Part shown: positions 4,210 through 20,523 of the stretch, piece by piece
Numbering within the stretch: the stretch's first letter is position 1
Layout of the letters: every line of letters starts with the position of its first letter
Assembly: GCA_035529855.1 (NCBI GenBank)
Contig: DATKVX010000088.1
Coordinates: 1-32,048 of the forward strand
Length of the DNA: 32,048 nucleotides
Source of the DNA: a bacterium
GTDB lineage: Bacteria > RBG-13-66-14 > B26-G2 > WVWN01
Reading direction: 5' to 3'
Translations under genes and position numbers: made by a program
Notes under the pieces: model-generated
The model's database searches: none
The model's input: the letters and a program-made list of their open reading frames with translations, nothing else
What the model was told of the DNA's origin: nothing

Positions 4210-4238
4210 GGAAGGGTGTTAAAACCTGATAAAATAAA

Positions 4239-4257
4239 CCCCGCGTACGGCGCGGGG
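4239..4257. terminator. Bidirectional terminator between the peptidase and ssb
   Basis: CCCCGCG (4239-4245) pairs with CGCGGGG (4251-4257) around a five-base loop. CTTTCT follows on the plus strand, and AAAATAAA precedes, giving TTTATTTT on the minus strand. It serves two convergent genes. Confidence 0.85.
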
Positions 4258-4280
4258 CTTTCTACCGGGATTTGGGCCGG

Positions 4281-4682
4281 CTAGAATTCCGAAGCCGGCG
4301 GTTCTTCCGGGGGAGCGGTTTCCGGCTCGGTTTCGGCGGCCGTCGTGTCGGCCCGGCGCGGCAATAGCACCAAACGTTCCACCACTACCTTAAGCTTCGA
4401 GCGTTTTTCGCCCTCGCCGGTCTCCCAGCGGTCCTGGTGGAGGCGGCCCTCCAGGAAGACCGGCCGCCCCTTTTTAAGGTAATCGCGCGCTATCTCTGCG
4501 GTGCGGCCGTACGCGGTGCAGTCGATAAACGATACCTCTTCCGTCTGTTCGCCGTCGCGGTTGCGGTACGTTCGGTTAACGGCCAACCGGAGGTCCGTTA
4601 CGATACCCCCCGTCGGCAGGTCGCGCGACTCGGGGTCGGCGGTGAGATTTCCCAATAGAAATACGCGATTGTAGTTAGCCAC
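4281..4682 (-). CDS. ssb: Single-stranded DNA-binding protein
   Basis: This 133-aa OB-fold protein coats single-stranded DNA in replication, repair and recombination. The N-terminal domain (residues 1-107) has the family signatures NRVFLLGNLTADPE, LRLAVNRTYRN, FIDCTAYGRTAE and KGRPVFLEGRL. A short Glu/Pro/Thr-rich tail follows and ends in PPASEF. The usual protein-docking tip is a run of Asp followed by Ile-Pro-Phe; here the last residue is still Phe but the tip is less acidic and lacks the Ile-Pro. The start is GTG, supported by GGAGGA six bases upstream and by the promoter at 4713-4741. The gene stands alone. Confidence 0.96.
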   Translation of the reverse strand: MANYNRVFLLGNLTADPESRDLPTGGIVTDLRLAVNRTYRNRDGEQTEEVSFIDCTAYGRTAEIARDYLKKGRPVFLEGRLHQDRWETGEGEKRSKLKVVVERLVLLPRRADTTAAETEPETAPPEEPPASEF

Positions 4683-4712
4683 GGTTCCTCCGTTTCGTTG
4701 AATAACCGGTCC

Positions 4713-4741
4713 ATAATATTTTTTTACCGGGGTCGTGTCAA
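4713..4741 (-). promoter_or_regulatory. sigma70 promoter of ssb
   Basis: On the minus strand a consensus TTGACA (4736-4741) is 17 bases from TATTAT (4713-4718). The ssb start follows after about 30 bases that include a GGAGGA ribosome-binding site. Confidence 0.88.
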
Positions 4742-4771
4742 GGGATTTATCGGCGCACCCGCGGGTTAGAT

Positions 4772-4799
4772 TTGAAAAATCCGACGGTTTTTGTTAAGT
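4772..4799 (+). promoter_or_regulatory. Possible promoter of the amidohydrolase operon
   Basis: TTGAAA (4772-4777) is followed after 16 bases by TTAAGT (4794-4799). The -35 box is good but the -10 box is weak. It faces away from the ssb promoter and lies about 20 bases before the GTG start. Confidence 0.45.
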
Positions 4800-4820
4800 T
4801 AAGGGTCGTGGACCAGGACG

Positions 4821-5981
4821 GTGGCGATGAAGACGCTTGCGATTATAAACGGAACGACGTATCGTACCGGCGACGCGGCGCCCGCGAGGGCGAACGTCGT
4901 AATTCGAAACGGTAAGATAATTTCGGCGGGCCCGGCCGCTAAAGTCCCCCGCGGCGCCGAAGTTATCGACGCCAAGGGCCTGGTCGTAACGCCCGGTTTG
5001 ATAGACGCCCATACCCACGTCGGCAACTTCGGCGAGGGTACCGGCCAGCCGGGGTTCGACGCCAACGAGGCTGCGGAGGCCGCCACGCCGCACGTACGCG
5101 CGCTAGACGGCATCGACCCCCGCGACCTCGGCTTCGACGACGCCCGCCGCGCCGGCATCACGGCGGTGTGCGTACTGCCGGGGAGTGCCAACGTCATCGG
5201 CGGCACCGGCGTGGTGTTGAAGACCGCGGGTTTCATAATAGACGAGATGGTCGTCTCGGCCGACGCCGGCATGAAGGTCGCCTTCGGCGAAAACCCGAAA
5301 TTCTCCCACCCCGACAATCGGCGGATGCCGGTTACGCGGATGGGCACGGCCGCGGTCCTGCGCGAGATGTTGACGCGGGCGGGCGAGTACCGGCGCAAGC
5401 GCCGCCTGCCGCCGGCGAAGCGGCCCGACCTCGACATCCGTATGGAGCCGTTGGCGAGGGTGTTGGCGGGCCGGATGCCGCTGCGGGCGCACGCCCACCG
5501 CGCCGACGATATCGCCACCGCGGTCCGCATAGCGCGGGAGTTCAAGTGCCGGTTGATATCGGACCACTGCACCGAGGGGTACCTCATCGCCGACTACCTG
5601 GCCGAGAACGGCGTGCCGTGCGTCGTGGGCCCGACCCTCATCGGCCGGTTCAAGCTGGAGTTGAGGGAGCGTTCGTACGCCGCCGCCGGTATTTTGGAGA
5701 AGGCGGGTTGCGCCGTGGCGTTGACCACCGACCACCCGTTCGTACCTATCGACGTCTTGACCGCCTCGGCCGCGACGGCGGTGCGCGAGGGGATGACCGA
5801 GAAAGGCGCGCTACGTGCCATCACCAACGGCGCGGCGCAAATGCTCGGCCTAGGCCGGCGCTTGGGCAAGCTGGCGCGCGGCTACGACGGCGACGTCGTC
5901 GTTTGGAGCGACCACCCCCTCGACGCCCAGGCGAGGGTCGTGGCTACCGTGGTCGAAGGCGAGGTGGTGTACCGCTCGTAG
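4821..5981 (+). CDS. Metal-dependent amidohydrolase (imidazolonepropionase-like)
   Basis: This 386-aa TIM-barrel hydrolase has the small flanking beta-sandwich made from both ends of the chain (residues 1-55, and the end from KLARGYDGDVVVWSDHPLD). Metal ligands are visible as VTPGLIDAHTHVG, LRAHAHRADD, SDHCTEGY and ALTTDHP. It should hydrolyse a cyclic amide or similar C-N bond in the cytoplasm; there is no signal peptide, and family knowledge does not fix the substrate. The start is GTG 4821, or ATG 4827 two codons later; AGGACGG lies just upstream. The next gene starts 9 bases after this stop, so the two are probably co-transcribed. Confidence 0.88.
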   Translation: MAMKTLAIINGTTYRTGDAAPARANVVIRNGKIISAGPAAKVPRGAEVIDAKGLVVTPGLIDAHTHVGNFGEGTGQPGFDANEAAEAATPHVRALDGIDPRDLGFDDARRAGITAVCVLPGSANVIGGTGVVLKTAGFIIDEMVVSADAGMKVAFGENPKFSHPDNRRMPVTRMGTAAVLREMLTRAGEYRRKRRLPPAKRPDLDIRMEPLARVLAGRMPLRAHAHRADDIATAVRIAREFKCRLISDHCTEGYLIADYLAENGVPCVVGPTLIGRFKLELRERSYAAAGILEKAGCAVALTTDHPFVPIDVLTASAATAVREGMTEKGALRAITNGAAQMLGLGRRLGKLARGYDGDVVVWSDHPLDAQARVVATVVEGEVVYRS

Positions 5982-10801: not shown

Positions 10802-13800
10802 ATGACGGCACCGAGTAAAGTAAAGGAATTAGTCGAACGCTTCGACCGGAATAAAGACGTCTATTGCGGGAGCGGTTTTAACGAAACCCAACTCCGCCGC
10901 GAGTTCGTCGACCCGTTGTTCGAGGCCCTCGGCTGGGACGTGGACAACAAACGCGGCGTCTCGCCGCTGTATCAGGACGTCGTTCACGAGTACGGCACCG
11001 AGGTCGAGGGTTCCCAGAAGACCGCCGATTACGCCTTCCGCGTCGGCGAAAAGGTGAAATTTTTCGTCGAGGCCAAAAAGCCCGGCACCCGCCTTAAAGA
11101 CGACGCCGGCCCCGCGCTCCAACTCCGCCGCTACGCTTATTCCGCCGGCCTGCCCCTTTCCATATTGACCGACTTCGAAGAGTTCGCGGCCTACGACGGC
11201 CGCGTTCCGCCGAAGAAGGCCGACGCCGCCTCCCGCGCGCGCGTTATGTATTTCACGTACGACCAATACGTCGACGCGTGGGAGGAAATCGCCGCGGTCT
11301 TTTCGAGGGACGCCGTATGGAGCGGCGCCTTCGATACGTACGCCGACGAGAACCGCGGCGGCAAGGCCGAACCGGTCGACAAAGCGTTTTTGAAGTTGCT
11401 CGAGCACTGGCGCGACGAGCTCGCCCGGAACGTCGCCAACCGCAACCGCGAGAAGGACCTCGACAAGTACGAGCTCAGCGCCGCGGTCCAGGCCATACTC
11501 GACCGCGTCATCTTCCTGCGCGTCGCCGAGGACCGCGGGATTGAGGGCCGCGGCCGGCTCGAGGCGCTCCGGACGGGCGAGGGCGTTTACGCCGGCCTGA
11601 TGGCGTTGTGCCTCGAGGCCGACGACGTATACAACTCCGGCCTGTTCCACTTCCGCGACGAGAAAGGCCGCGCCACCTCGCGCGACGAGCTTACCCCCAC
11701 CCTCCACGTAGACGACGCCATACTGCGTAAAATAATCCGCGAGCTCTCCGAAAGCCCGTACGAGTTCGGCGTCGTACCGGTGGAAATCCTCGGCCAGGTG
11801 TACGAGCAGTTCCTCGGCAAGACGATATGGCTCGACGGCCGCGGCGTCCACATCGACTACAAGCCGGAGGTCCGCAAGGCCAAGGGCGTCTACTACACGC
11901 CGCAGTACATCGTCGAGTACATCGTCAAGAACACGGTGGGGGAGCTGTTGAAGGGGTGCAAGAGCCCGAAGGACGCCGCCAAGCTTAAGATACTCGACCC
12001 GGCGTGCGGCTCGGGCTCGTTCCTGCTGGGCGCGTACCAGCACCTCATCAACTGGCACCTCGAGTGGTACGTGGGCGACGACCCGGGCGGGTATGAGGGC
12101 AAGGTCGTGCCGACGCCCGGGCCCGGGCCCGTGAGCTGGCGCCTCACCGCCGCCGCCAAGAAGGACATCCTGGTCAACAACCTGTTCGGCGTGGACATCG
12201 ACCCGCAGGCGGTGGAGGTAACTAAGCTCTCGCTGCTGCTGAAGGCGCTGGAGGGCGAGAGCCGCGAGTCCGTCGGCGCGCAGACGAAGTTCCTGCGCGA
12301 GCGGATATTGCCGGACCTGGCGGGGAACGTCAAATGCGGCAACTCGTTGATAGGTTCCGACTATTGGGACTTTGCCCGGGGAAAGACAGTGGGCTTAAGC
12401 CCACTGTCCGAACGATCGTTCGAAATAACGGAGGAGGAACGGCGCCGCGTCAACCCGTTCGATTGGGAGGTGGAGTTCGCGGATATAATGAAGGCCGGCG
12501 GCTTCGACGCGGTGATCGGCAACCCTCCGTGGGTTTACCAATTATTAATAGGCGAAGAAAAGGATTATTTAGTAAATAAGTATAAAACATTTGTACCTAC
12601 GGCTGATTTATACGTATGTTTTACTGAGGAGGGTCTAAAACTTACCCGCGGAAATGGGTTTTTTGGGTTAATAGTTCCCAATAAATGGTTACGAGTCGAT
12701 TACGGTGCGAACTTAAGGAGTTTTATTAAGGAATTCGAAATAGTCGAAATGGTTGACTTCCGCGATTTACACGTTTTCGAGGGGGCAACTAATTACCCAT
12801 TGATAATATTGGTTTTGAAAAGCCGACCGAAGAGAAAACCTTCATACGTGCCCGTCAGAAACCTAAGTTTCCGATATTTAAGTGAAGAAGTCGCGGCCAT
12901 AGGGTATAAACTCGAGCCGGGAGCGTTAGACAACGAGGGGTTTTCTCTAGTCCGGCCCAAAACCCAAGGCGTACTCGATAAGATAAATAACGTAGGCACC
13001 CCTTTACGCGAATATGCGGGCGCGAAGATTTACCGGGGCGTACTTACTGGGTTCAATAACGCTTTTATAATTAACCGCGGAACCCGGGACCGCCTTATCG
13101 CGAAAGACCCAAAGTCGGCGGAAATAATCGAACCCTTCGTCTTCGGCGACGACGTTAGGCGGTACTATATTAATTTCCGCGAACGCTTTTTGATATTTAC
13201 GAGGCGCGGTATTCGGATAGAAAGATATCCCGGGGTAAAAGAATATCTTGCTAATTGGCGTGACGAGTTAACACCTAAGAAAACGAGTAAAGAAAAACTA
13301 GGTCGTAAACCCGGGAACTATAAATGGTACGAAATACAAGATACAATCGATTACTTTGCCGAGTTCGATAAACCAAAGATTATCTACGGGCAATTCCAAA
13401 TAGCGCCACATTTCGCTTTAGACAGAACCGGTTTAACATTCGGCAGTAACCATTATATGTTGTTAGGGTTGAGCGCCGACGTGTTGCTATTTTTATTGGG
13501 CGTTCTAAATTCTAAGGTTTATTTCTTCTTTATGAACACAATAGTATCAAGTATACAAGGCGCTACCTTAGTCGCACAAAAAAGCCGTATAGTTAATTTC
13601 CCCATCCCAATATTAAATACTTCCGGTACATTAAAATCCGCGCGGCACGACAATATGGTGGCGTTGGTGGAGGAGATGTTGGAATTGCACAAGCGCCTCG
13701 CCCGGGCCAAATCCGACCCCGACAAGCAGCGCCTCCAACGCGCCGTCGCCACCACCGACCGCAAGATCGATAATCTGGTCTACGAGCTGTACGGCCTGGC

Positions 13801-13831
13801 GGACGAGGAGATAAGGATCGTTGAATCGTAG
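10802..13831 (+). CDS. Single-chain restriction-modification enzyme (type IIG-like)
   Basis: This 1009-aa protein probably both cuts and methylates DNA. Residues 1-130 hold a PD-(D/E)xK nuclease (Asp76 in KTADYAF; Glu90-Ala-Lys92 in FFVEAKKPG). A helical linker is followed by an N6-adenine methylase of the Eco57I type, with the SAM motif at Asp399 (DPACGSGSF) and the catalytic N574-P-P-W577. From about residue 580 to 950 lies the target-recognition region, then a helical tail (LQRAVATTDRKID, LVYELYGL). From about 12540 to 13650 the DNA turns strongly AT-rich with different codons, while both flanks are GC-rich, which suggests the recognition segment was swapped in. A 24 bp palindrome is inserted in frame at 12385-12408. 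Four extra copies of the tail follow downstream. The recognition sequence cannot be predicted. Confidence 0.9.
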   Translation: MTAPSKVKELVERFDRNKDVYCGSGFNETQLRREFVDPLFEALGWDVDNKRGVSPLYQDVVHEYGTEVEGSQKTADYAFRVGEKVKFFVEAKKPGTRLKDDAGPALQLRRYAYSAGLPLSILTDFEEFAAYDGRVPPKKADAASRARVMYFTYDQYVDAWEEIAAVFSRDAVWSGAFDTYADENRGGKAEPVDKAFLKLLEHWRDELARNVANRNREKDLDKYELSAAVQAILDRVIFLRVAEDRGIEGRGRLEALRTGEGVYAGLMALCLEADDVYNSGLFHFRDEKGRATSRDELTPTLHVDDAILRKIIRELSESPYEFGVVPVEILGQVYEQFLGKTIWLDGRGVHIDYKPEVRKAKGVYYTPQYIVEYIVKNTVGELLKGCKSPKDAAKLKILDPACGSGSFLLGAYQHLINWHLEWYVGDDPGGYEGKVVPTPGPGPVSWRLTAAAKKDILVNNLFGVDIDPQAVEVTKLSLLLKALEGESRESVGAQTKFLRERILPDLAGNVKCGNSLIGSDYWDFARGKTVGLSPLSERSFEITEEERRRVNPFDWEVEFADIMKAGGFDAVIGNPPWVYQLLIGEEKDYLVNKYKTFVPTADLYVCFTEEGLKLTRGNGFFGLIVPNKWLRVDYGANLRSFIKEFEIVEMVDFRDLHVFEGATNYPLIILVLKSRPKRKPSYVPVRNLSFRYLSEEVAAIGYKLEPGALDNEGFSLVRPKTQGVLDKINNVGTPLREYAGAKIYRGVLTGFNNAFIINRGTRDRLIAKDPKSAEIIEPFVFGDDVRRYYINFRERFLIFTRRGIRIERYPGVKEYLANWRDELTPKKTSKEKLGRKPGNYKWYEIQDTIDYFAEFDKPKIIYGQFQIAPHFALDRTGLTFGSNHYMLLGLSADVLLFLLGVLNSKVYFFFMNTIVSSIQGATLVAQKSRIVNFPIPILNTSGTLKSARHDNMVALVEEMLELHKRLARAKSDPDKQRLQRAVATTDRKIDNLVYELYGLADEEIRIVES
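12385..12408. repeat. 24 bp perfect palindrome inserted in the R-M coding sequence
   Basis: Two 12-base halves (GACAGTGGGCTT and AAGCCCACTGTC) are perfectly complementary. Its length is a multiple of three. It encodes part of GKTVGLSPLSE, lying between the conserved GNSLIGSDYWDF and NPFDWEVEF blocks, where relatives have a variable loop. Confidence 0.85.
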
Positions 13832-13840
13832 GGGCCGGCG

Positions 13841-13868
13841 GTAGGGGCGACTGGCCAGTCGCCCCTAC
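13841..13868. repeat. 28 bp palindrome P1 (core ACTGG/CCAGT)
   Basis: A perfect 14+14 inverted repeat with arms GTAGGGGCG and CGCCCCTAC. It lies 9 bases after the R-M stop codon, and its right arm runs directly into tail copy 1. Confidence 0.92.
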
Positions 13869-13966
13869 AACGCGCCGTCGACGCCACCGACCGCCAAATA
13901 GACGCGCTGGTCTACGTGCTGTACGGCCTGACGGATGAGGAGATAAAGATCGTGGAGGGTTCGTAG
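13865..13966 (+). pseudogene. R-M tail copy 1 (C-terminal 33 codons only)
   Basis: In frame it reads LQRAVDATDRQID, ALVYVLYGL, TDEEIKIVEGS and then TAG, matching the last 33 or so residues of the R-M protein. There is no start codon or ribosome-binding site, and the 5' boundary is palindrome P1. One conserved Glu is changed to Val (VYVLYGL). Codon choices are closer to the other downstream copies than to the intact gene, so it probably derives from another family member rather than a fresh local duplication. Confidence 0.85.
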
Positions 13967-14012: not shown

Positions 14013-14471
14013 ATGGCTGACGACCGAAAAGAACATATAGATAGGTTTATCCAAGATGTTATATCGTCGAGAGACGCTCATCGGATAAGGACTTCCGAGT
14101 TTGTTAGCTTCTCTAGCGTTTTTATTGGTATTCTCTTAGTCGGTTTTGGATACTTAGCGAAAGGACCTAACGTTACAATCTCTTTTTGCTCTTCGGTTTC
14201 TTTCGCATTATCTTTTTTATTTTTCCTAGGAGCAGTATTCATTAGTATAATTAGCTGGCATAAGTCTTTCGCGACCGTACGTTGGCCTTCCGCGAAACGT
14301 TTAACAAGAGCTAATTATATTAAGTACGCCGAACATAACTACGATCTTATTAAAACGAGTTTAAATCGTTGTTCGAAATGGATAACCGTAGCCGGGTTCC
14401 TTTTTTGCGCTGGGTTATTATTCCTCGGGGTGTCGGCGGTGTTATTATTCTTAACCGCCGTCGATTGCTAA
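14013..14471 (+). CDS. Small membrane protein of unknown function
   Basis: This 152-aa protein has about 25 charged N-terminal residues and three predicted transmembrane segments (about residues 30-46, 57-80 and 122-146). A basic stretch (WHKSFATVRWPSAKRLTRANYIKY) lies between the second and third. GGGAGG lies 12 bases before the ATG. The DNA is clearly AT-richer than the chromosome around it and uses different codons, so it looks acquired. It sits between R-M tail copies 1 and 2 and just ahead of a 43-aa gene with a strong ribosome-binding site. I do not recognise a family. Small membrane effectors are common in defence islands, but that role is only inferred from position. Confidence 0.75.
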   Translation: MADDRKEHIDRFIQDVISSRDAHRIRTSEFVSFSSVFIGILLVGFGYLAKGPNVTISFCSSVSFALSFLFFLGAVFISIISWHKSFATVRWPSAKRLTRANYIKYAEHNYDLIKTSLNRCSKWITVAGFLFCAGLLFLGVSAVLLFLTAVDC

Positions 14472-14525: not shown

Positions 14526-14657
14526 ATGGCAGGTAACGGGGAAGAAAATGGCGGACTGAACGATGACGATGGCACGGGCAAATTCGTTAAAGAAAGCGAT
14601 AAAGGAAAAGCCACTCGGCCAACGCCGTCAAAACCCGAAAAATCCGACGACAAATAG
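14526..14657 (+). CDS. 43-aa hydrophilic protein of unknown function
   Basis: The small reading frame starts MAGNGEENGGLNDDD and ends in a Lys/Pro/Ser-rich KPEKSDDK. It is supported by a near-perfect ribosome-binding site (AAAGGAGG, about 8 bases before the ATG) and by its position 54 bases after the membrane-protein gene. The composition, with an acidic N-terminus and basic C-terminal half, suggests a disordered protein. R-M tail copy 2 begins 14 bases after its stop. It has no recognisable family. Confidence 0.6.
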   Translation: MAGNGEENGGLNDDDGTGKFVKESDKGKATRPTPSKPEKSDDK

Positions 14658-14671
14658 AAACCTACAGGACC

Positions 14672-14776
14672 CGCCTCCAGCGCGCCATCGCCGCCACCGA
14701 CCGCAAGATCGACGCGCTGGTCTACGAGCTGTACGGCCTGACGGAGGAGGAAATAAAGATCGTGGAGGGGTCGTAG
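14672..14776 (+). pseudogene. R-M tail copy 2
   Basis: In frame it reads RLQRAIAATDRKID, ALVYELYGL, TEEEIKIVEGS and then TAG. All consensus residues are intact but there is no start codon. It joins abruptly to the 3' flank of the 43-aa gene, and the palindrome P2 follows the stop by a few bases. As in the R-M gene itself, the stop codon is embedded in TCGTAGGGGC. Confidence 0.85.
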
Positions 14777-14897: not shown

Positions 14898-15257
14898 GTG
14901 GCTTGTGAACAATTCGACGTTTGGTATTACATCGTATACCTTCACCGCGACGCGGACCGCGAGGGCGCCTCCCACATATCCGCGGCGCGAATTTGGTGCC
15001 AAGGCTACTGCCGGGGACGGATAGAAAATTTCGAAATCACGTTTTGGCAAGATATGAGCGACGCCCCGGAGAACTTGTCGGCTATAACCCCCGAACGGCT
15101 GGCGGGTTCTTTGCACGTCGCGGCCGCGGAATACCCTTGGTATATCGACTTGTTGCGTAACGAGAAACCGGTGCGCGCCAGGATTTTCACCGAACCGGCG
15201 TTAAACACGTTATGCACCCTTGACGAACGGGTCGGCGAGGGCGAGCCGGCGCCGTAG
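14898..15257 (+). CDS. 119-aa protein of unknown function
   Basis: The start is GTG with AAGGAGGT about 8 bases upstream, which makes translation likely. The sequence is soluble-looking, with many aromatic residues near the N-terminus (FDVWYYIVYLH), a CxxxC pair (WCQGYC, residues 34 and 38) and an acidic end. It matches no family I know. Its GC content is nearer the chromosome's than that of its AT-rich neighbours. The stop codon TAG is supplied by the left arm of palindrome P3 (GTAGGGGCG), so the palindrome's arrival may have set the protein's C-terminus. Confidence 0.7.
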   Translation: MACEQFDVWYYIVYLHRDADREGASHISAARIWCQGYCRGRIENFEITFWQDMSDAPENLSAITPERLAGSLHVAAAEYPWYIDLLRNEKPVRARIFTEPALNTLCTLDERVGEGEPAP

Positions 15258-15281
15258 GGGCGACTGGCCAGTCGCCCCTCC
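15254..15281. repeat. 28 bp palindrome P3 (core ACTGG/CCAGT)
   Basis: Same as P1 except for one base at the right end. Its left arm provides the stop codon of the 119-aa gene and its right arm runs into tail copy 3. Confidence 0.9.
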
Positions 15282-15382
15282 AGCGCGCCGTCGGCGCTAC
15301 GGACCGCAAGATAGATGAACTAGTGTACGAGCTGTACGGCCTGACGGATGAGGAGATAAGGGTCGTGGAGGGGGCTGAATAA
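15278..15382 (+). pseudogene. R-M tail copy 3
   Basis: In frame it reads LQRAVGATDRKID, ELVYELYGL, TDEEIRVVEGAE and then TAA. It has the same 5' boundary as copy 1, namely a palindrome with core ACTGG/CCAGT fused to the Leu-Gln-Arg codons. It has no start codon. It differs from the other copies mainly at synonymous or conservative positions. Confidence 0.85.
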
Positions 15383-15425: not shown

Positions 15426-15998
15426 TTGAAAATAGATTTCCCTTTATTCCGCAAGTATTACGGAATAGCGAAAAATGCTTTTATAAAAGTAAAGGATATC
15501 GAGGATGAAATCCGGCCCGCAGAAATAGCTCTTGAACAATGCAAGGGTACCCCCGCTGAGAACGAAATTATAAGCCGATTATTGATTTGGAACCATGAAA
15601 CAGACCTAAAATCTATGGAAGCGGTTATTTTCTGCCATTTAGCCTTAGAATCTTTTATAAATTACTACGCTTTTAAATATCTAGGAAAAGCCGTCTTTGA
15701 AAAACGCGTAAAAAGATTGGATTTCTTATCTAAGTGGGTGTTCGTGCCTTTATTAAAATTAGGTAAGAATATAGGACCAAGTTCTAGAGAGATGATAGAA
15801 TTAGAATGGTTAAATAAGAAAAGGAATCTTTTAGTTCACGATAAACCGTTTTCTTCATCTTTGGATAAAATTACTAATTATTGTTTGAATAGAGAAGCCG
15901 ACGCGCGACGAGCTGTCGGTTGTGTTGAGAAAACCATTTCGTTTTTAAAATCTATCGATCCCGACGTTATCAAAATTTGGGCTCGTTTCGCAGAATAA
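15426..15998 (+). CDS. HEPN-like protein (Rx4H motif)
   Basis: This 190-aa, mostly helical protein is encoded by AT-rich DNA. Residues 133-138 read RNLLVH, the Rx4H pattern of HEPN domains. It is preceded by a helix (LESFINYYAFKYL) resembling the first conserved helix of such domains. Active HEPN proteins are RNases or toxins, frequent in abortive-infection and toxin-antitoxin systems. A single motif in an otherwise unrecognised sequence makes this a tentative call. The start is TTG 15426, chosen because AAGGAG lies about 9 bases upstream and homologous-looking residues begin at once. It lies between R-M tail copies 3 and 4. No antitoxin-like partner is adjacent. Confidence 0.65.
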   Translation: MKIDFPLFRKYYGIAKNAFIKVKDIEDEIRPAEIALEQCKGTPAENEIISRLLIWNHETDLKSMEAVIFCHLALESFINYYAFKYLGKAVFEKRVKRLDFLSKWVFVPLLKLGKNIGPSSREMIELEWLNKKRNLLVHDKPFSSSLDKITNYCLNREADARRAVGCVEKTISFLKSIDPDVIKIWARFAE

Positions 15999-16022
15999 GC
16001 GAAAAATTCGTCTTGTCACCGT

Positions 16023-16161
16023 TCCGACGCCGACAAGCAACGCCTCCAGCGCGCCGTCGCCGCCACCGACCGCAATATCGCCGTCCCGTCGTACGGGCGC
16101 AACGCGTTGCGCCCCTACCGGCCTGACGGCCGAGGAGATAAGGGTGGTGGAGGGGCGGTAG
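16023..16161 (+). pseudogene. R-M tail copy 4, disrupted by a palindrome
   Basis: The first half reads SDADKQRLQRAVAATDRNI, which extends further upstream than the other copies. The codons for the LVYEL segment are then replaced by palindrome P4. The tail resumes one frame away as GL, TAEEIRVVEGR and TAG. The frame is broken, so this copy is dead. Its stop codon lies in palindrome P5. Confidence 0.85.
16091..16118. repeat. 28 bp palindrome P4 (core CAACG/CGTTG), inside tail copy 4
   Basis: GTACGGGCG and CGCCCCTAC arms (one mismatch) flank a self-complementary 10-base core. It replaces about 20 bases of the conserved tail, showing directly that these palindromes insert into or exchange with coding sequence. 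Confidence 0.9.
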
Positions 16162-18269: not shown

Positions 18270-19210
18270 TGGCGGTTCGGACGCGGATATGGGCGGCGGT
18301 CGCCGTTATAACGTTGCTGGCGGCGGCCGCCGGCTGCCGTAAGGGCGAGGAAGGAGAAGCCGCCCGGGAGCGCGTCGTGGCGCGCGCGGGCGACCGAGAG
18401 ATAACCGCCGCCGACGTTTACCGCGGCCTTTACCCCCAGGGTAGGCCCGAGGGCGCCGAGGTCGATGCCGACGCCGCGCGTCGGGTCGTAGAGCAACTGC
18501 TCGAGCGCGCGATAATACTCGCGTGGGCCGGGAAGAACGGATTGGAGGTCGGCGACGCCGAGGTCGACGCCCGCCTGGGCCTGATTAAAGCCGACTACGG
18601 CGCCCGGGGTTTCGCCTCCTACCTCAAGTCGCAGAACCTCACGGCCGAAGCGTTCGAGGAGACCGTGCGGGACGACCTCATCGTCGAGGCGGCAATCGAG
18701 GCCGCGGTGGTGGAGAAGGTCTCGGTCAGCTACGACGACGTCGTGGCCTACTACAACGTCCACGCCGCCGATTTCGAGGTGCCGGCCGAATTTCACCTCA
18801 AACAGATCGTTACGGACGATAAGGGCCGGGCCGAAGAGGCTCTCGCCAAGCTGACGTACGGCGCGACCTTCGAGGAAGTGGCCCGGGAGCTCTCGATTTC
18901 GCCGGACCGCCACGCCGGCGGCGACGTCGGCTATACCACCTTGGAGGCTCTTCCGCCGGAGGTGGCCGCGGCGGTGAAGGACCTGCCCCCGGGTCGGACC
19001 AGCGGCGTGATCGCGACGCCGTACGGTTGCGAAATCGTCAAAGTAGTAAGCGTGCGGGAAGCGAGGCGCCGCCCTTTGGCCGAGGTTCGACCCGAAATAG
19101 AAGACCTCCTCCGCACCGAGCGCGAGGAGGAGCTCTACGCGCGTTGGTTGGAGGGATTGCGAAAGGAAACCAAAGTGTCCGTCGACGACGGGGCTTTGGC
19201 CGAGTTATGA
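18269..19210 (+). CDS. Parvulin-type peptidyl-prolyl isomerase lipoprotein (second of three)
   Basis: This 313-aa lipoprotein has the signal peptide MAVRTRIWAAVAVITLLAAAAGC, with Cys23 the probable lipidated residue. A SurA_N-like helical region spans about residues 38-165 (VVARAGDREITAADVYRGL). A single parvulin domain follows (about 173-265: FHLKQIVTDDKGRAEEALAKL, FEEVARELSISPD, GGDVGYTTLEALPPEV, then VIATPYGCEIVKV). The start is GTG 18269, which shares a base with the previous stop. Its own stop overlaps the next ATG by 4 bases, so the three genes are translationally coupled. It resembles PrsA and SurA; the exact substrate set is unknown. Confidence 0.87.
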   Translation: MAVRTRIWAAVAVITLLAAAAGCRKGEEGEAARERVVARAGDREITAADVYRGLYPQGRPEGAEVDADAARRVVEQLLERAIILAWAGKNGLEVGDAEVDARLGLIKADYGARGFASYLKSQNLTAEAFEETVRDDLIVEAAIEAAVVEKVSVSYDDVVAYYNVHAADFEVPAEFHLKQIVTDDKGRAEEALAKLTYGATFEEVARELSISPDRHAGGDVGYTTLEALPPEVAAAVKDLPPGRTSGVIATPYGCEIVKVVSVREARRRPLAEVRPEIEDLLRTEREEELYARWLEGLRKETKVSVDDGALAEL

Positions 19211-20523
19211 GACCGCCGGTTGTCATTCGCCGTTTCGCCGCCGCCGTACAAGCTTTAGCTTGTGTTTTGTTTTTCGCCGGGACGGCTGGGGCGGCGCGCC
19301 GGCCCTTGGACGGCATCGTGGCGACCGTCAACGACGACGTAATCCTGGCGAGCGAGCTGGGCGAGGAGGTCTCGGTACGCTTGTATCAGATGGAGGCCGC
19401 CGGAGCGAAGGCGGGCGACCTCCGCGCTTTCGCGGCCGAGGTCTTGGCGGCCATGATGGACGACCGCCTCCTGTTGCAGGACGCCGACGGGCGCGACATC
19501 ATCGTATCTCGGGAGGACGTTAAACCCTACCTCGACGAGGAGCTCGAGCGTATTCGCGGCGGGTTCTCGTCGCAGGCGGAGTACGAGGCCGCGCTCGCGC
19601 AATACGGTATGACGGAAAAAGAGCTCGTCGTCCGTTACCGGAAAACCCTCCGCGACCAGTTGAAGATAAGACGCCTTCTGGACGTCGTCCTCTCGCCCCG
19701 GGTGGAGGTCAGGGAAGAGGAAATACGCGCCTACTTCGACGCCCGCCGGGACGAGCTCGCGCTGCCCACGCTCGTCACGCTGCGCGAGATTGCCGTTGCC
19801 AAGCAGCCGTCGGCGGAATCGAGGGCCCGCGTCAAGAACGAACTCCAACGCATTAGGGACGCGGCGCTGGCCGGAGGCGGTTTCGCCGCGCTGGCGAAGA
19901 AAGCGGCCGATGCGGAGGAGGGCGGCGAATTCGGCGCCTCGTTTAAATTCCGGCCGGGGGAGGCGGTGCCGGCGCTGGAACGGGCCGCGGCCGGCCTGCG
20001 GCCGGGCGACATATCGCAAGTGGTGGCGGGACCGGATGGTTATTGGCTGGTTCGCCTCGGGAGCATCGAGAACGAGCGGCGGGAAGTCCAATACGTCCAC
20101 CTCAAAGTGAGTTTGACGGACGCCGACGTGAGGGCCGCCCGGGCGAAGGCGGAAAAGGCCGCGGCGGCGCTGGCCGGGGGTGAAGATTTCGCCGACGTGG
20201 CGGCCGCGTACAGCGGGAACGAGGAGACCGCGGCCGCGGGCGGCCTGGTGGGCGAGATAGCCATGTCGGAGTTCGAAGCGGAGATGCCGGAAGTCGCGGC
20301 GGCGGTGGAGGGGCTTTCGCCCGGGGGCGTCACGACGGTCATAGAACGGCCCGAAGGGTTTTTCATCCTCAAACTCGAGGAGCGACGGGAGGGCCGCGAG
20401 GTTTCGTACGAGGAAGCGCGCGAAGTCGTTAAGAGGACCCTCAGGGCCCAGAAATTGGCGCTCGAGAAAAAGAAGTACGTACAGGAATTAAAGGATAAGG
20501 CCTACATCAAAACCTTTGACTAA
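19207..20523 (+). CDS. surA: SurA-like periplasmic chaperone/peptidyl-prolyl isomerase (third of three)
   Basis: This 438-aa exported protein lacks a lipobox and has a cleavable-looking signal (ending FFAGTAGAA). The N-terminal SurA domain begins DGIVATVNDDVILASELGEE, a strong match to the SurA opening. Two parvulin domains follow (about residues 185-285, VTLREIAVAKQPSAESRARV and GGEFGASFKFRPGE; and about 288-395, VQYVHLKVSL and AGGLVGEIAMSEFEAEMP). It should help outer-membrane proteins cross the periplasm. ATG 19207 overlaps the upstream stop (ATGA); a longer in-frame start lies inside the neighbouring gene and would destroy the signal peptide. A bidirectional terminator follows. Confidence 0.9.
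   Translation: MRPPVVIRRFAAAVQALACVLFFAGTAGAARRPLDGIVATVNDDVILASELGEEVSVRLYQMEAAGAKAGDLRAFAAEVLAAMMDDRLLLQDADGRDIIVSREDVKPYLDEELERIRGGFSSQAEYEAALAQYGMTEKELVVRYRKTLRDQLKIRRLLDVVLSPRVEVREEEIRAYFDARRDELALPTLVTLREIAVAKQPSAESRARVKNELQRIRDAALAGGGFAALAKKAADAEEGGEFGASFKFRPGEAVPALERAAAGLRPGDISQVVAGPDGYWLVRLGSIENERREVQYVHLKVSLTDADVRAARAKAEKAAAALAGGEDFADVAAAYSGNEETAAAGGLVGEIAMSEFEAEMPEVAAAVEGLSPGGVTTVIERPEGFFILKLEERREGREVSYEEAREVVKRTLRAQKLALEKKKYVQELKDKAYIKTFD

Follow-up and report, generated by a model that had tools for sequence, protein, structure and literature searches.

The window analysed here, a stretch of 32,048 nucleotides, is contig C88 of a draft genome (G000; 2.62 Mb, 97% complete), and the genomes compared with it are draft bins. 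On its forward strand, an open reading frame (ORF) of 1009 codons at 10802-13831 (1009 amino acids) encodes what is, on its domain matches, a single-chain type IIG restriction-modification (RM) enzyme combining an N-terminal nuclease-like domain, a methylase and a target-recognition domain (TRD). Pfam places HSDR_N at residues 26-136 (E=2.2e-9), N6_Mtase at residues 329-487, with Eco57I (E=1.8e-41) reaching residue 659, and TaqI_C at residues 778-935 (E=4.7e-11), with one TaqI_C stretch in the gene, and PADLOC returns REase_MTase_IIG (E=1.2e-187). The structure model (mean pLDDT 77.8) matches CamA, M.BseCI, BrxX/PglX, BpuSI and MmeI, and the C-terminal tail is modelled confidently as a helical hairpin (helices 943-968, 972-996 and 1001-1008). 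Along the gene, a GC-rich stretch (GC 0.635; 10802..12520) encoding the nuclease and the first part of the methylase ends at the NPPW codons; codons 541-576 (12422..12529), which end in the NPP of NPPW, form a putative 5' recombination arm; an AT-rich segment that appears to have been replaced (12524..13636), delimited by third-position GC, ortholog identity, the TaqI_C match and the model, encodes the C-terminal methylase fold and the TRD; and the conserved GC-rich tail (13637..13831) is the candidate 3' recombination arm. The earlier note on this DNA had equated the AT-rich part with the recognition region. The TRD does lie within it, but so does part of the methylase fold: the Eco57I match extends to residue 659, and the model strands 615-626, 646-652 and 666-672, which we read as the last strands of the methylase, fall within the AT-rich part.

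The composition changes at two sharp points. GC content is 0.635 before NPPW, 0.415 at 12533-13636 and 0.610 at 13637-13831, with a window mean of 0.630. An unsupervised two-change-point fit to GC at third codon positions (GC3), supplied with no positions, placed the first break inside NPPW, at codon 575 (nt 12524), and the second where the tail starts, at codon 946 (nt 13637), with GC3 of 0.86, 0.44 and 0.86 across the three parts. Its log-likelihood gain was 100.6, whereas 60 permutations gave no more than 12.3 and the 8 other long ORFs of the window no more than 30.2. These change points confirm the shift from GC-rich to AT-rich at NPPW and back to GC-rich at the tail that the earlier note had placed at 12535-13655, a range whose start was right to ~11 nt but whose true end is 13636. 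A GC drop after NPP was also found in 19 of the 19 homologs with usable values (the contig-edge fragments L051 and L063 were excluded), and the GC content after NPP is little related to that of the gene itself (r=0.37, p=0.12). Because the step is a family trait, it cannot alone show a swap, and composition was therefore ruled out as proof of one. Elsewhere in the window, the first ~80 codons of the ORF at 19027-20523 have a GC3 of 0.41 versus ~0.8 later; the start of this ORF is probably listed too early.

Comparison with orthologs bears on replacement directly. The nearest genome, G001, belongs to the same genus and carries an ortholog (contig C33) at the same chromosomal site, flanked by an S41 peptidase gene upstream and by tRNA-Asp and a PPIase gene downstream. 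The two proteins are 92% identical in the nuclease and 89% in the methylase, then 31% and 25%, and 79% in the tail, and at the DNA level, identity drops at the NPP codons from ~90% to ~40%, rising again at the tail start. The corresponding values are 74/85%, 18/14% and, for the tail, 84% in a further gene pair of these genomes (C64 in G000, C41 in G001), and 95/82%, 31/28% and 81% for two genes within one other genome. The TRD therefore differs between otherwise near-identical alleles whose flanks are conserved. Trees of the N-terminal part, the segment and the tail, built from 18 homologs, reject one another (p-AU<=8.1e-5), and the segments nearest to that of the window gene are those of G005 and G018 (43-48%). 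Two observations had been named beforehand as speaking against replacement, a composition step in all homologues and a single tree shared by both segments; the step is indeed general (19/19), but the trees conflict, and the reading is thus not refuted. A close donor of the window segment was not found among 386 genomes, in which the best match was 48%, nor was a plasmid or phage donor found among the 75 plasmid and 5 phage records that matched, all of them at <60% identity. We consider it well supported, with a probability of roughly 0.8, that the 3' half of the gene was replaced by homologous recombination between conserved flanks. The ortholog comparison places this replacement after the divergence of the two same-genus genomes, and because of the domain exchanged, the DNA specificity would have been altered with the segment.

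Evidence on the breakpoints comes from the four RM genes of G000 and G001, in which we counted sites that group the orthologs against sites that group the genes of one genome. The ratio is 216:2 for codons 1-330, then 104:5 for codons 331-540, but 1:0 in codons 541-576 (3 sites of the third pattern) and 0:8 in the tail (2 sites of the third pattern). Codons 541-576 thus have 1 ortholog-supporting site in 108 nt, whereas codons 331-540 have 104 in 573 nt (Fisher p=1.2e-7), and the loss of ortholog signal in the tail is likewise marked (Fisher p=1.9e-9); tail codons 976-978, for example, read CAG CGC CTC in both G000 genes and AAA AGG ATC in both G001 genes. The tail tree pairs genes of one genome in G001 (C33 and C41, support 80), G005 (C10 and C9, 87) and G053 (C33 and C53, 92); as the G053 genes form a sister pair in the head tree as well, only the G001 and G005 pairs are informative. 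Both flanks of the segment look homogenised between loci, and because the ortholog signal is lost in both, they look like recombination arms, although the uniformity of the 36-codon 5' arm may stem partly from protein constraint rather than gene conversion. Ortholog identity, conflicting trees and homogenised arms together bear out the proposal that the breakpoints lie in the conserved methylase domain and in the tail. The further proposal that just the recognition segment is replaced does not hold, as the replaced part carries methylase strands too.

The tail is repeated downstream of the gene, as had been noticed from the sequence, in four 5'-truncated copies (stubs) at ~13856-13957, 14636-14767, 15269-15370 and 16020-16151, three of which are preceded by accessory ORFs, all on the forward strand. 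Stub 1 (13856..13957; tail profile E=7.2e-16) adjoins the gene tail, with no ORF between. It is followed by an ORF of 152 aa (14013..14471) with predicted membrane segments, a GC content of 0.40 and a weak DUF2721 match, by an ORF encoding 43 aa that are polar and disordered-looking (14526..14657), and by stub 2 (14636..14767; E=1.5e-17), in which the tail is recognisable from ~14673 and which shares 91% nucleotide identity with the tail of the C64 gene. An ORF of 119 aa (14898..15257; GC 0.58), for which no family was found, precedes stub 3 (15269..15370; E=7.2e-16), and an ORF of 190 aa (15426..15998; GC 0.35) precedes stub 4 (16020..16151), the most decayed, which is split by a palindromic insert. 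The 190-aa ORF gave no family match; it contains RNLLVH, which we take to resemble the HEPN RNase motif. In a comparison with the adjacent gene tail over 98 nt, the difference is 15-18% for stubs 1-3 and 23% for stub 4; the tail of the C64 gene is a better match to stubs 1 and 2 than the adjacent one. No homology was found among the accessory ORFs of different loci, the cross-locus ORF matches being tail-derived frames, RAYT-like ORFs and the shared PPIase gene. The 152-aa membrane protein and a 148-aa one at L055 are alike in layout, with no significant similarity (BLAST E=0.46, phmmer 0.02).

Stubs are not confined to the window. A tail-profile search, in which tail matches outside long RM frames were taken as orphan stubs, returned 32 tail matches in the same phylum (14 genomes), 19 of them orphans; a second phylum (3 genomes) gave 10 matches with 1 orphan (G062 C137), and a third (4 genomes) gave 9 with 6 orphans. 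Nearly all retain the tail's 3' end (two rows of the same-phylum search stop short), and the variable 5' ends of the stubs ruled out a fixed insertion core in the tail. All 6 orphans of G000 are found downstream of its two RM genes, no more than 2.3 kb away, so that stubs recur at its second locus, and a stub lies clearly near an RM gene at nine loci (the window, L011, L053, L054, L055, L057, L060, L068 and L069), with a weak 13-residue tail match at L084. When nine stubs were compared with the closest live tail of the same genome, 68 of 120 differences fell at third positions, and 48 of 97 changed codons were non-synonymous versus 74% expected at random. This third-position bias suggests that stubs descend from tails once under selection, a footprint that fits in part each of the three models of stub origin considered below. 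At the 26 RM loci readable downstream (L063 and L051 had no ORF), the GC content of the first downstream ORF was below that of its own locus in 22 and above it in 4 (L071, L072, L081 and L091). Among 20 ORFs beside tails or stubs that were run through Pfam, 7 had no match and several had weak matches only; Pfam names for ORFs beside gene tails or stubs include DUF4268, HEPN_LA2681, HepT with a nucleotidyltransferase, Fic/Doc, Nmad3, DUF2188 and Y1_Tnp.

The content of the syntenic site itself varies among four genomes of the genus, each of which shows a different state. G002 (L083) has neither gene nor stub; G003 (L073) has no gene, one stub found by the search and two shorter tail-end pieces found by eye, one tail piece being joined to the S41 stop through a CCTGACG common to both; G001 (L053) has the gene, one accessory ORF and one stub, followed by a DUF2188 ORF; and G000 has the gene, four accessory ORFs and four stubs. 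At other loci, RM residues 3-52 are joined directly to the tail end, the gene body being gone (L087, reverse complement, ~4955-5198), and RM residues 3-59 are followed by an Nmad3 gene (Pfam E=2e-73) and a tail stub (L061, reverse complement, 6-1323), where the RM body seems to have been replaced by another gene. Lone tail stubs, in stretches that as retrieved contained no RM gene, follow nucleotidyltransferase/HepT genes at L056 (3485-4398) and a Fic/Doc-family gene at L074 (reverse complement, 4238-5140). In two species of one genus, an orphan stub lies just upstream of a gyrB-like gene, named by eye (L085, 266-355; L088, reverse complement, 358-444).

Palindromes accompany some of these junctions. 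One, GTGGGCTTAAGCCCAC, lies at 12389..12404 in a coding linker just 5' of the 5' recombination block, and has 5 sites in G000 at <=1 mismatch, 2 of them within the two RM loci. Another, GGGGCGACTGGCCAGTCGCCCC, stands immediately 5' of stub 1 (13844..13865) and, as a second copy, immediately 5' of stub 3 (15257..15278); counted as GGGGCGACNGGCCNGTCGCCCC, it has 19 sites in G000 at <=1 mismatch, 2 of them in the window array. The placement of GTGGGCTTAAGCCCAC and GGGGCGACNGGCCNGTCGCCCC at the RM loci and in the array has a chance of ~1e-4 each, computed post hoc. With stub starts placed by eye, a strong inverted repeat stands before 4 of the 25 stubs, as against 5 of 912 random positions; three of the four are in G000. 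The G005 RM genes (L055, L057 and L058) carry genome-specific CCCCGCC-type palindromic repeats in the coding linker before NPP, and a similar repeat lies near the stub at L074. Five matches to Y1 transposase genes were found in G000, and at L064 (reverse complement, 4-998) an IS200-like Y1 transposase gene has a tail stub on one side and a full-length copy of the tail on the other.

We propose that the RM gene occupies a variable chromosomal site at which it would trade its 3' half with other alleles by homologous recombination, with crossovers within the ~36 conserved codons that end at NPP and within the helical-hairpin tail. Such exchanges would also import accessory genes, often AT-rich, several of which resemble genes of defence or toxin-antitoxin systems. 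Where the 3' crossover fell within the resident tail, the 3' end of the old tail would stay behind as a stub, so that the array would be a partial record of past exchanges. This origin of the stubs is the one we favour, at somewhat less than even odds. Running counter to it, the accessory ORF at 14898..15257 is not AT-rich, stub 1 has no ORF before it, and stub 5' ends vary, only 4 of 25 starting at a strong palindrome.

The segment might instead have become AT-rich with no replacement at all, by fast evolution in the absence of partners for recombination (mutation bias with no GC-biased conversion, or an effect of amino-acid composition). The GC drop in 19/19 homologs and its weak relation to the GC content of the gene could indeed be accounted for in this way. 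However, it is GC3, and not amino acids alone, that halves at two sharp points; orthologs that are 92% and 89% identical are unlikely to have drifted to 25-31% from the next codon on; and the nearest relatives of the segment are other genes in other genomes, with conflicting trees. We therefore regard this explanation as largely refuted as a full account and very improbable, although the process may still contribute to the low GC content. A phase-variable RM locus, in which silent recognition cassettes are shuffled within one cell, would be in keeping with the tail repeats downstream of the gene, but the stubs lack a recognisable recognition domain and the genome holds one match to the window segment at E<=1e-20; no silent cassette was found in G000 at that threshold, which a very divergent segment could escape. 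We disfavour this explanation strongly and give it hardly any credence. Of the specificity switching by recombinational replacement that the earlier note had suggested, segment replacement and the flanks as breakpoints are upheld, whereas exchange of the recognition domain alone and on-demand switching are not, the latter because of the single segment match and the stubs' lack of a recognisable recognition domain; what is seen is allele replacement across evolutionary time.

For the stubs, a competing explanation is that accessory genes enter the tail independently of segment exchange, by insertion with long target duplication, duplicating the 3' end of the gene. This process (Nobusato 2000, as named in PMC1643837 and PMC3031569) is RM-linked and leaves inserted genes between long direct repeats, and the layout of tail, ORF and tail copy fits the H. 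pylori RM pattern as described there (PMC3031569, PMC1643837). Direct repeats are present here as well, and the empty site of the same genus (L083) carries no RM tail. Unlike in those accounts, however, what is repeated here comes from the 3' end of the RM gene itself, truncated at its 5' side and present up to four times. In addition, the stubs are 15-18% (1-3) and 23% (4) off the adjacent tail, stubs 1 and 2 being nearer to the C64 tail; the duplication length varies; and an allele with the tail but without the insert was not found at the site. We regard this origin as rather unlikely. The stubs could also derive from RM genes, tandem or former, whose bodies were deleted while the tail ends stayed in place. 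The truncated genes at L087 and L061 and the fusion to the S41 stop at CCTGACG in G003 all speak for such deletion, but in G000 the stretches between stubs contain no N-terminal remnant of an RM gene, and the stubs begin inside the tail, which leaves deletion an unlikely account.

Eco57I-like type IIG enzymes resemble the present one in that a nuclease-like N-terminus, a gamma-type adenine methylase and a recognition domain share one chain; enzymes of this type cut at a set distance from their recognition site and methylate adenine. Here, by contrast, the exchange unit takes in the C-terminal methylase fold, and tail stubs and accessory genes lie downstream. Integrons, characterised by an integrase and attC sites, carry gene cassettes in arrays whose genes are unrelated but have an element in common. 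The array described here is similar in this respect, whereas its shared element is a coding fragment of variable length whose 5' end is not fixed. In H. pylori, recognition domains are exchanged through flanking conserved DNA, also between loci, as stated in two reports (Furuta 2011 PMC3077401; 2014 PMC3983042). This domain movement (DoMo) or TRD exchange in Helicobacter pylori is like the exchange proposed here in its recombination in conserved flanks and between loci. It involves S subunits with two TRDs and short repeats, in contrast to the one TRD, fused gene and long coding arms found here, and with one TaqI_C stretch, movement of a TRD between two positions in one gene, as in DoMo proper, does not apply. 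No account of tail stubs at RM genes was found among the titles and abstract openings returned by a literature search that was thin on subscription journals and is not proof of absence.

In summary, the codon-level breakpoints provide a clear example of a single-chain restriction enzyme that appears to have exchanged its recognition half, including part of the methylase fold. We tentatively suggest, as a possibility to which we would give rather less than even odds, that the conserved tail of this enzyme family serves, in three or more phyla, as a portable landing site at which recombination would swap the recognition half, gather accessory genes, often AT-rich and of toxin-antitoxin or defence type, and leave stubs as an ordered record of past alleles, in an integron-like manner with no dedicated recombinase. 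If the stubs are former 3' ends, past alleles could be counted from one genome, and the gathering of small defence and toxin-antitoxin genes beside restriction genes would be explained.
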